From: Actinomycetes bacterium
GTDB taxonomy: Bacteria; Actinomycetota; Acidimicrobiia; Acidimicrobiales; Acidimicrobilacustridaceae
DNA length: 64,000 bases
Direction of reading: 5' to 3'
Assembly (NCBI GenBank): GCA_029782145.1
Contig: JAKOVH010000016.1
Coordinates: forward strand, 372,001 to 436,000
In this document: piece by piece, positions 41,159-61,959 of the stretch
Layout: each line of letters starts with the position of its first letter
Position numbering within the stretch: the stretch's first letter is position 1
The notes under the pieces: model-generated
The model's input: the letters and a program-made list of their open reading frames with translations, nothing else
The model's database searches: none
Told to the model about the DNA's origin: nothing
Translations under genes and position numbers: made by a program

Positions 41159-41187
41159 TTGCCAGCTCAGGGGACTGCTGGCAGAAT
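41159..41187 (+). promoter_or_regulatory. Putative promoter of the ilvB leader and operon
   Basis: TTGCCA (41159-41164) and CAGAAT (41182-41187) are 17 bp apart. The -10 ends 9 nt before the leader-peptide ATG, so the leader itself would be read from the first bases of the mRNA. A short inverted repeat, TGCCAGC/GCTGGCA, overlaps the promoter and may be an operator. Confidence 0.5.
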
Positions 41188-41196
41188 GGTGCGTCT

Positions 41197-41259
41197 ATGG
41201 GCACCACGGCCGCCATCCCCACGATGAGCACTGCCACCTCGCTCGTAGTACTCCGCTAG
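41197..41259 (+). CDS. ilvB leader peptide (branched-chain attenuator)
   Basis: A 20-codon ORF reads MGTTAAIPTMSTATSLVVLR then stop; an internal ATG at 41224 would give 11 residues. The final Leu-Val-Val-Leu run, one of the amino acid families made by the downstream genes, is the hallmark of ribosome-mediated attenuation. The stop codon sits at the foot of a hairpin (41259-41287), and a terminator hairpin follows at 41292. Leader-peptide control of ilvBNC is known in Corynebacterium. Confidence 0.72.
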   Translation: MGTTAAIPTMSTATSLVVLR

Positions 41260-41287
41260 CGCACGCCGGCCCGTCTGCCGCGTGCGC
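41259..41287 (+). promoter_or_regulatory. Pause-type hairpin in the ilvB leader
   Basis: GCGCACG (41259-41265) pairs with CGTGCGC (41281-41287), with CGGC/GCCG pairing inside. It begins at the leader stop codon and ends 4 nt before the terminator stem, the place expected for a pause or competing hairpin. Confidence 0.5.
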
Positions 41288-41291
41288 GTCC

Positions 41292-41325
41292 CCGACCTCC
41301 CACCTGCGGGAGGTCGGTTGCGTTT
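41292..41325 (+). terminator. ilvB attenuator terminator
   Basis: CCGACCTCCC (41292-41301) and GGGAGGTCGG (41308-41317) form a perfect 10-bp stem with a 6-nt loop, followed by TTGCGTTTT. It lies 90 bp before the ilvB ATG with no gene between. Premature termination here would be relieved when the ribosome stalls on the leader. Confidence 0.72.
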
Positions 41326-41407: not shown

Positions 41408-45721
<4,314 letters not shown>

Positions 45722-58879: not shown

Positions 58880-58906
58880 GGGCCGCACCCCCGCGGGGTG
58901 CGGCCC
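58880..58906. terminator. Bidirectional terminator hairpin between serA and the cupin gene
   Basis: GGGCCGCACCCC (58880-58891) pairs perfectly with its complement at 58895-58906 around a 3-nt CGC loop. It sits in the 42-bp gap between convergent stop codons. No T-run is present. Confidence 0.68.
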
Positions 58907-58912
58907 GGAGGC

Positions 58913-59413
58913 TCAGCCCAGCAGCTCGATGCCGGTCCGCTCGCACAGCTCGCCGAGGCGCGCCTCGTCGGGGGCGGCCGGGCCGGGCAGGCGCCGCTCG
59001 GTGGCCGGCTCGCCCATTCCTACGAAGAAGTCGTGGAGGTTGTCGCGGGGCTTGCCCGAGCAGATCACGAGCATGCGGGCCGTGGGCGTCTGCACCCGGA
59101 AGGTGTGGGCCGACCCCCGGGCCACGAAGGCGAACGTGCCCGGCGTGGCGGTGACCACCTGCCCGTCGACCTCGAACTCGACCACGCCGTCGACGACGTA
59201 GAACGCCTCGTCCTCGTCGAGCTGCACGTGCATGGGCGGGTTGGACGCCGCCGTCACCAGGTGCTCGGTGGCGTGGTAGGCGCCGCCGGTGTCGGCGCTG
59301 CTGGCCACGGTGGTCATGAGGGCGTTGAAGAACCACGTCGCCTCGGCGCCGTCGCGGTCGCGGACGAAGGTGCTCGGAACGGTGGCGGGGGACGGTGCGG
59401 TCGCCGTGCTCAT
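58913..59413 (-). CDS. Cupin-domain protein
   Basis: This 166-residue protein has the cupin motifs PPMHVQLDEDEAFYVVDGVVEFEVDG near residue 60 (motif 1, with one His and two acidic residues) and PGTFAFVARGSAHTFRV near residue 95 (motif 2 His). It most resembles small quercetin-dioxygenase-like cupins, but metal and substrate are unknown. GAGAGGAG precedes ATG 59413. It is divergent from a PadR regulator, 90 bp apart, and is a likely target of that regulator. Confidence 0.85.
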   Translation of the reverse strand: MSTATAPSPATVPSTFVRDRDGAEATWFFNALMTTVASSADTGGAYHATEHLVTAASNPPMHVQLDEDEAFYVVDGVVEFEVDGQVVTATPGTFAFVARGSAHTFRVQTPTARMLVICSGKPRDNLHDFFVGMGEPATERRLPGPAAPDEARLGELCERTGIELLG

Positions 59414-59436
59414 GAGGTGCTCCTCTCACTCGGTGG

Positions 59437-59494
59437 ATACTGCCCTGTGCAGCATCATGCTCGTACTAGACACTGCCCTGGGCACCATGTCAAC
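59437..59494. promoter_or_regulatory. Candidate PadR operator region with two repeats
   Basis: ACTGCCCTG occurs at 59439-59447 and 59472-59480, 33 bp apart, about three helical turns. Each is the left part of a small dyad: CTGC/GCAG in the first and TGCC/GGCA in the second. Outer GACA and TGTC also flank the second copy. The region lies in the cupin-PadR divergent gap. Confidence 0.5.
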
Positions 59495-59503
59495 CTCCTT
59501 TGC

Positions 59504-60103
59504 GTGAACGACTCGTTGACGACCACCTCCAACGCCGTGCTCGGGCTGCTCTCGCTGCGCTCGTGGAGCACCTACGAGCTGGCCAAGCAGGCCCAGCGCT
59601 CGCTCGAGTGGTTCTGGCCCCGGGCCGAGCGCAAGCTCTACGACGAGCCGAAGCGCCTCGTGGCCGCAGGGCTGGCGACCAGCGACAAGGAGATGACCGG
59701 CGCCCGGCCGCGCACCGTGTACGCCATCACCCGCAGGGGCCGCCACGCCCTGCGCCGCTGGTTGGGCGAGCCGCCCGCGCCGCCGACGTTGGAGTTCGAC
59801 GGCATGGTCCGGGTGTTCTTCGCCGACGGCGGCACCCTCGAGCAGCTCCGCGCCACCCTGGGCGCCATCGCCGAGGCGTCCGACATCCGCCTCGCCGAGC
59901 TCGAGGGCAAGATCACCGAGCTGGAGCGGGTCGACGTGCCGTTCCCCGAGCGGCACCACCTGAACGCGCTGGCCCTGCGGTTCCACCTCGACCACGAGCG
60001 GGTCTTCGGCGAGTGGGCCCGCTGGGCGCTCGTCCAGGTCGAGGAGTGGCGCTCCACCACCGACCCCGGCCGGTGGCAGCCGCGGCAGGCGTTCGAGCCG
60101 TGA
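59504..60103 (+). CDS. PadR-family transcriptional regulator
   Basis: This 199-residue protein has the N-terminal PadR winged helix (AVLGLLSLRSWSTYELAKQAQRSLEWFWPRAERKLYDEPKRLVAAGLA, then RTVYAITRRGRHALRRWL). The C-terminal helical dimerisation domain follows (TLEQLRATLGAIAEASDIRLAELEGKITELERV). PadR proteins repress divergent genes until a small phenolic or toxic ligand binds. The neighbouring cupin gene and the paired repeats between them suggest autoregulation plus control of the cupin. GTG 59504 is used because the wing and helix lengths then match. Confidence 0.88.
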   Translation: MNDSLTTTSNAVLGLLSLRSWSTYELAKQAQRSLEWFWPRAERKLYDEPKRLVAAGLATSDKEMTGARPRTVYAITRRGRHALRRWLGEPPAPPTLEFDGMVRVFFADGGTLEQLRATLGAIAEASDIRLAELEGKITELERVDVPFPERHHLNALALRFHLDHERVFGEWARWALVQVEEWRSTTDPGRWQPRQAFEP

Positions 60104-60106
60104 GGG

Positions 60107-60135
60107 TTGACGTGGCCGGGTCGCTCCGGCACACT
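60107..60135 (+). promoter_or_regulatory. Putative promoter of the leuA leader and gene
   Basis: TTGACG (60107-60112) and CACACT (60130-60135) are 17 bp apart. The -10 ends 9 nt before the leader-peptide ATG. Confidence 0.55.
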
Positions 60136-60144
60136 CAAGGGCCT

Positions 60145-60186
60145 ATGCGTTGCGCCGCCGCCTCCCTGGAGCTCCTCCTTCGCTAG
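60145..60186 (+). CDS. leuA leader peptide
   Basis: A 13-codon ORF reads MRCAAASLELLLR then stop, with four leucine codons in its last six sense codons. The stop is followed by a hairpin (60189-60212) and then a terminator hairpin, with leuA starting 150 bp downstream. This is the standard form of a leucine attenuator. Its Leu-Leu-Leu-Arg ending parallels the Leu-Val-Val-Leu-Arg ending of the ilvB leader. Confidence 0.75.
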   Translation: MRCAAASLELLLR

Positions 60187-60188
60187 GG

Positions 60189-60212
60189 CGAGTGCCCCCA
60201 TACCGGTGCTCG
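60189..60212 (+). promoter_or_regulatory. Pause-type hairpin in the leuA leader
   Basis: CGAGTGCC (60189-60196) pairs with GGTGCTCG (60205-60212), including two G-T wobbles, around an 8-nt loop. It starts 2 nt after the leader stop codon. Confidence 0.45.
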
Positions 60213-60214
60213 TC

Positions 60215-60254
60215 GACCTCCTGCGCCCTCGGGCCGGGAGGTCTCGTCGTTTTC
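60215..60254 (+). terminator. leuA attenuator terminator
   Basis: GACCTCC (60215-60221) pairs with GGAGGTC (60237-60243), with an inner GCCC/GGGC helix. A T-rich TCGTCGTTTT follows. The outer arms are the same bases as in the ilvB attenuator terminator. Confidence 0.7.
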
Positions 60255-60336
60255 CGGCCCTGGTGCACCTGCACCGCCGCACTCGTCCGTACGCCTCGGA
60301 GACCAGCTCACCCCCCGCCTCGGAAAGGCACGCCCC

Positions 60337-61959
60337 ATGGACACCGCCCGCCCTGCCGCCGCTCCCACCACCACGACCAGCAGCGCCACCGCCAGCAGCG
60401 ACGGCCGACTGATCATCTTCGACACCACCCTGCGCGACGGCGAGCAGTCGCCGGGCATCTCGCTCGACCAGGGCGAGAAGCTGGAGATCGCCGAGCAGCT
60501 GGCCCGCCTCGGCGTCGACGTCATCGAGGCCGGCTTCCCGATCGCCAGCCAGGGCGACTTCGAGGCGGTGCAGGCCATCGCCAAGGGCGTCTCGGGGCCC
60601 GTCATCTGCGGGCTGTCGCGCACCGCGCTGGGCGACGTCGACCGCTGCTGGGAGGCCATCGAGCCGGCCGCCCGGCGGCGCATCCACGTGTTCATCGCCA
60701 CCAGCGAGACCCACATGAAGCACAAGCTGCGCATGACGCCCGAGCAGGTGAAGACCGAGGCCGCCGCCGCGGTGGCCCGCGCCCGCGGCTACACCGACGA
60801 CGTGGAGTTCTCTCCCGAGGACGCCTCCCGCTCCGACTTCGGCTTCATGTGCGAGGTCCTGCAGATCGCCGTCGACAACGGCGCCACCACGCTGAACATC
60901 CCCGACACGGTCGGGTTCGGCATCCCCGAGGAGTACGCCAAGCGGCTGCACGACGTGCGGGCGCGGGTGAAGGGCGACTACGTCATCTCGACCCACTGCC
61001 ACAACGACCTCGGCCTGGCCGTCGCCAACTCGCTGGCCGCGGTGCACAGCGGCGCCCGGCAGGTCGAGTGCGCCATCAACGGCCTCGGTGAGCGCGCCGG
61101 CAACGCCGCCCTGGAGGAGGTCGTGATGGCCATCCGCACCCGGTCCGACTACTACGGCGGCGTCGACTGCGGCGTCCGTTCCGAGGAGCTGGCTCGCACC
61201 AGCCGGTTGGTGAGCCGGCTCACCGGTTACCCGGTGCAGTACAACAAGGCCGTCGTGGGCCGCAACGCCTTCGCCCACGAGTCGGGCATCCACCAGCACG
61301 GCGTGCTCAACGAGCGCACCACCTACGAGATCATGGACCCGGCCGCCGTCGGCCAGGGCGAGTCGAAGATCGTCCTCGGCAAGCACTCGGGCCGCCACGC
61401 CTTCGCCGACACGCTCAAGAAGATGGGCTACGACCTGCACGGCGACGCCCTGAACCAGGTGTTCGCCCGGTTCAAGGAGCTGGCCGACCGCAAGATCGAG
61501 CTCAGCGACGCCGACCTCGAGGCCCTGGTCGCCGAGGAGATGGGCGACACGGTGCGCTACCGGTTCCAGCTCGTGTCGGTCGACTGCCGGGGCGGCTCCA
61601 AGACCACCCCCACCGCCACCGTGGTGCTCGACCACGACGGTGAGCTGCTGGAGGCCACGGCCGAGGGCGACGGCATGGTCGACGCGGCGTGCAAGGCCAT
61701 CAAGCAGGCCACCGGCATCAGCGGCACCCTCACCGACTACACGGTCACGTCGGTCACCGGCGGCGTCGACGCCCTGGCCGACGTGGCGCTGCGCTTCGAG
61801 GTCGACGGTCTCTCCATGCCCGGCCGAGGCCTGTCCACCGACGTCGTGGAAGCGTCCGCCCGGGCGTTCCTCAACGCCATGAACCGCATCGTGCGCGTCC
61901 GCGACTCCGGCGAGGACCCGCGCTCGGTCGACCGCCCGGGCTCCTTGCAGCAGCACTGA
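60337..61959 (+). CDS. leuA: 2-isopropylmalate synthase
   Basis: This 540-residue protein has [30 protein letters not shown] near residue 28 (metal-binding Asp and catalytic residues), [19 protein letters not shown] near residue 225 (HxH motif) and [19 protein letters not shown]. The C-terminal LeuA regulatory domain (about residues 400-520) confers leucine feedback inhibition. It starts leucine synthesis from 2-ketoisovalerate and acetyl-CoA. The length fits the bacterial type 1 LeuA rather than the longer type 2 of mycobacteria. AAAGG precedes the ATG. Confidence 0.96.

Follow-up and report, generated by a model that had tools for sequence, protein, structure and literature searches.

The region at positions 60107–60255, upstream of leuA in the window (the whole 64,000-nt stretch of Acidimicrobiia DNA analyzed here), is very probably a ribosome-mediated transcription attenuator for leuA, with the leader of ilvB as a parallel device; both assignments are read from sequence and its conservation. 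Leader codons, a hairpin (P1), and an intrinsic terminator are conserved in front of leuA, with covariation. Premature termination at leuA, and the direction in which it responds to leucine, are probable on the same grounds. The original prediction held that the leuA upstream region repeats the ilvB design of CANNNT box, 9 nt, ATG, leader, hairpin, and terminator, and every named element could be located at both loci (Table 1). The outer terminator arms, GACCTCC/GGAGGTC, are indeed identical at leuA and ilvB, with differing inner parts, and the predicted distance of about 19 kb agrees with terminators lying 18.9 kb apart.

Table 1. Parts of the leuA and ilvB leaders, with a third leader of the same genome. 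Positions are those of the window, except in the last row.
Feature	Position	Strand	Basis or remarks
−35 hexamer TTGACG, leuA leader promoter	60107..60112	+	Sequence reading; class-wide promoter and start counts
−10 hexamer CACACT, leuA leader promoter	60130..60135	+	17-nt spacer from −35; 9 nt to leader ATG
leuA leader ORF, MRCAAASLELLLR and stop	60145..60186 (ATG 60145)	+	Leu codons CTG, then CTC CTC CTT ahead of stop
leuA P1 hairpin	60187..60214	+	5′ arm GGCGAGTGCC, 3′ arm GGTGCTCGTC; two-sided changes in all P1 pairs, 85 sequences
leuA intrinsic terminator hairpin, GACCTCCTGCGCCCTCGGGCCGGGAGGTC	60215..60243	+	Arms GACCTCC/GGAGGTC; −20.8 kcal/mol; covariation
leuA terminator tail, interrupted U-tract TCGTCGTTTTCC	60244..60255	+	Compared with family consensus
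leuA, 2-isopropylmalate synthase, TIGR00973 type	60337..61959	+	Gene assignment
ilvB leader promoter	41159..41187	+	−35 TTGCCA 41159–41164, 17 nt, −10 CAGAAT 41182–41187; then 9 nt to ATG 41197
ilvB leader ORF, MGTTAAIPTMSTATSLVVLR and stop	41197..41259	+	VV in 73/82 leaders of the class
ilvB P1 hairpin	41259..41287	+	Overlaps last base of stop codon; conserved pairs
ilvB terminator hairpin, CGACCTCCCACCTGCGGGAGGTCG	41293..41316	+	Arms GACCTCC/GGAGGTC as at leuA; conserved pairs
ilvB, acetolactate synthase large subunit	41408..43135	+	Gene assignment
leuB-ilvE-cimA leader	Own genome, C22:446360-446465 (L125:12861-12966)		Attenuator-like

At leuA, the first nucleotide of P1 is the one directly after the leader stop codon. 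The U-tract of the terminator is interrupted in the genus of the window (TCTCGTCGTTTT), in comparison with a family consensus of TTTTTTCGTT. T-rich tails follow the terminator hairpins across the class, and the leuA tail of the window is a weak one. Folded as a whole, the leader had a z-score of only −1.6, and hairpins as stable as those at leuA and ilvB make up about 0.2–0.3% of random windows of the same length. We also note that a gene for a PadR-like regulator (58898–60103) ends 3 nt before the −35 hexamer of the leuA leader.

To examine conservation, 37 genomes from the family were searched for orthologs of LeuA and IlvB, and the regions upstream of these were compared; they carried the same leader elements. 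Covariance models were built for the leuA leader (R1, from 28 sequences) and the ilvB leader (R2, from 26 sequences). Across 296 genomes of Acidimicrobiia, R1 matched in 155 and R2 in 135, mostly once per genome. The best 30 R1 matches all lay upstream of a LeuA-family gene, and the best 30 R2 matches were likewise all upstream of an IlvB gene. In alignments fitted to their own models, which favors the structure in pair counts, 96.9% of cells in P1 and the terminator were paired among 85 leuA leaders, with two-sided change in 23 of 23 pairs, and 96.5% were paired among 82 ilvB leaders, with two-sided change in 15 of 18 pairs. At neither locus did any of 500 shuffles reach the observed pair conservation, and slid controls were far lower. 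Together, the class-wide model matches and this pair conservation rule out chance as the source of the layout. Rfam covariance models, T-box and leader families included, did not match the window at their gathering scores; 60100–60350 remained without a match when E values up to 1 were allowed, and six relatives had none either. Weaker R1 matches were seen in other classes of the phylum and, of eight such loci fetched, one was upstream of a LeuA-type gene. Four loci from these other classes (L356, L358, L359, and L360) have short LIV-rich leaders whose stop codon is immediately followed by a hairpin, together with a terminator of the ACCTCC or ACCTCT type.

A third leader with the same layout, comprising MYARALQVASIR and a stop codon, P1, and a terminator, precedes leuB-ilvE-cimA 14 kb past leuA, outside the window. 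In relatives, the peptide of this leader reads ...IVIIR before the stop. The best 30 R1 matches, for their part, split evenly by enzyme, with 15 before a LeuA of the TIGR00973 type found in the window and 15 before a non-orthologous enzyme of the leuA_yeast type (TIGR00970). In one genome, G034, R1 leaders precede both the window-type gene and a further LeuA-like gene (L126:528-619, L007). That one leader type precedes two non-orthologous LeuA enzymes indicates that leader and enzyme are not always inherited together.

The leader peptides match the pathway. Three consecutive leucines were present in 85/85 leuA leaders and never appeared in the other frames, and a VV pair fell within the last six codons of 73/82 ilvB leaders. 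A −35/−10 promoter with a start codon 6–10 nt downstream was found in 50/85 leuA leaders and 40/82 ilvB leaders, compared with 0.3 and 0.2, respectively, in shuffles that scramble the start codons too. Motifs resembling a Shine-Dalgarno sequence were rare (7/58 leuA and 4/40 ilvB leaders). Because the −10 hexamer sits just before the start codon and such motifs are scarce, the leuA leader ORF is probably translated leaderless, and the same reasoning extends to ilvB. For Streptomyces lividans, leaderless translation of the leuA and ilvB leader peptides has been reported (PMC8079986).

These features suggest how the leuA leader may work. Transcription would begin at or just upstream of the leader ATG, and the short ORF would be translated without a Shine-Dalgarno sequence. 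The progress of the ribosome across the Leu codons before the stop would set whether the RNA ahead forms the terminator before leuA, such that enough leucine would lead to termination and a leucine shortage to read-through into leuA. A ribosome sitting on the stop codon would, by its position, have to exclude P1. The ilvB leader is predicted to be the same device, keyed to Val/Leu codons. A joint response of leuA and ilvB, which the original prediction thought the shared terminator could allow, is plausible since there are Leu codons in both leaders; it would run via charged tRNA and not via the shared arms.

The enterobacterial leu, ilv, and trp attenuators combine leader codons for the amino acid of the pathway and an intrinsic terminator with 1:2, 2:3, and 3:4 helices that exclude one another. 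The leaders described here are alike in their codons and intrinsic terminator and differ in having no established 2:3 helix. Segment pairs were searched for an antiterminator at both loci, yielding one same-register candidate at leuA and zero at ilvB. The leuA candidate pairs GGYGC in the 3′ arm of P1 with GYGCC in the 5′ arm of the terminator. All five of its pairs are present in about 47–48 of 85 leaders, and 89% of cells pair, but compensatory changes across the 85 sequences are no higher than in shuffles. Among the class leaders of ilvB, no cross-segment pairing rose clearly above shuffled levels, and no conserved antiterminator was found. Moreover, in 16 genomes the ilvB terminator arm is CCCCTCGC-like instead of GACCTCCC-like, and P1 in these genomes is mostly still GCGCACG/CGTGCGC; as the terminator arm changes while P1 stays, P1 and the terminator evolve independently at ilvB. 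A conserved competing antiterminator appears absent at ilvB and is only weakly indicated at leuA.

We considered two readings of P1 in this light, and regard both as rather unlikely. The first is that the BCAA leaders of the class are attenuators without a classical antiterminator, in which ribosome occupancy of P1 would be the switch and P1 formation itself would set terminator efficiency, with no pairing to a terminator arm, and in the same way at ilvB, leuA, and leuB-ilvE-cimA. The second, to which we give about the same low credence, is that P1 is a hairpin-stabilized pause signal or other timing device, with a constitutive terminator and regulation exerted mainly at the promoter or through ribosome coupling. 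A timing role would be in keeping with a P1 that is conserved to the same degree as the terminator, lies right against the stop codon, and shows no competition with the ilvB terminator. It fits less well with leader codons that match the pathway at three loci (LLL, VV, and, in relatives, IVII), a match that suggests a codon-dependent readout. A passage in Seliverstov et al., citing earlier work, states that in S. coelicolor mutations of the ilvB leader codons were without effect and that those at leuA gave an effect inconsistent with classical attenuation (PMC1262725). These mutation results count against the attenuator reading, as do the missing classical antiterminator, the weak leuA U-tract of the window, and the modest fold z-score of the whole leader.

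Next, we examined the shared terminator arms, which the original prediction had taken to suggest duplication of one control region. A duplication that gave rise to both the leuA and ilvB leaders, with the arms as its trace, is improbable in our assessment. The two loci do have the same block layout, and the local alignment of the ilvB and leuA leaders of the window scores 20, matched by only 1.2% of shuffles. Against this, the P1 sequences differ between leuA and ilvB, and neither R1 nor R2, run on the window, detected the locus of the other; each found its own locus only. The arms also drift. Within the family, the leuA outer arm reads AACCTCC, AACCCCC, AGCCTCC, AGCCTCT, and others, and that of ilvB is mostly GACCTCC or GGCCTCC. 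The terminators of relatives are nonetheless not unrelated, as most genomes carry a CCTCC/GGAGG-like core at both loci; it is the exact arms at leuA that do not hold. Co-variation of the arms, proposed as a check, amounted to a slight excess: similarity within a genome was 4.48 of 7 compared with 4.32 when genomes were shuffled (71 genomes with both leaders), and the 7-mer was identical in 9/71 compared with 4.9 expected, where the shuffle P values of 0.042 for similarity and 0.004 for identity ignore phylogeny and several pairs come from one genus. Finally, the leuB leader is closer to that of ilvB (score 28, shuffled maximum 21) than is the leuA leader (score 20). If any pair shares descent, the ilvB and leuB leaders would be better candidates than those of ilvB and leuA.

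The same terminator form also occurs at unrelated loci. In relatives, CCTCCC-loop-GGGAGGTCGTTNTCGTT was found 3′ of a tRNA gene and of a whiB-like gene (L266, L257, and L268), with 0 matches for the reversed pattern. In the 4.2-Mb genome of the window, GACCTCC-N(3-30)-GGAGGTC has only five occurrences, two of which are the leuA and ilvB sites, and the reversed-pattern control has one. Of the other three sites, context was read for two (L001 and L004), neither of which has a T-rich tail. A scan for intrinsic terminators over 480 kb of this genome showed no excess over shuffled sequence, and the argument for a common terminator form therefore rests on the relatives. The shared GACCTCC/GGAGGTC core is best read as a common or preferred terminator form in the lineage, and we do not take it as a sign of duplication.

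Last, we compared these leaders with known actinobacterial systems. It is very improbable that the region is an LEU element, which is a pseudoknot proposed for other actinobacterial leuA genes whose base stem pairs Leu codons with the leuA Shine-Dalgarno sequence for translational control; though the leader ORF of leuA is Leu-rich like that of LEU elements (PMC1262725), leader and gene are separated by a conserved intrinsic terminator, and the base stem found no support, with Leu-run/Shine-Dalgarno complementarity at the shuffled level (10.0 compared with 10.5) and a spacing that varies from 76 to 158 nt. The LEU element or LeuL1 of other Actinobacteria shares with our leaders a Leu-rich peptide encoded ahead of leuA, which in S. 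lividans is leaderless, but those elements are without a typical terminator and have a proposed Shine-Dalgarno pseudoknot, whereas here there is a covarying intrinsic terminator and no base stem. Attenuation of ilvB has been described in C. glutamicum (PMC11857589) and M. tuberculosis (PMC13236596). The attenuators of ilvB (ilvBNC/ilvBHC) in Corynebacterium, Mycobacterium, and Streptomyces resemble ours in having a short BCAA-rich leader ORF and, between it and ilvB, an intrinsic terminator (PMC11857589, PMC13236596, PMC8079986, PMC1262725). An antiterminator has been proposed for those of C. glutamicum and M. tuberculosis, whereas no conserved one was found here; a second difference is that P1 regularly starts at the stop codon in the leaders described here.

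This kind of attenuator is already known in Actinobacteria, and for Acidimicrobiia it is without an Rfam family. Our analysis extends leader-peptide attenuation of BCAA genes to the whole class, for which we found no earlier description in the literature searched, and provides two covariance models with class-wide support. In this lineage, leuA would be under terminator-based attenuation and not under an LEU element as proposed for other members of the phylum. Without a conserved antiterminator, an unusual trait, the long-unclear actinobacterial mechanism becomes testable by comparison.
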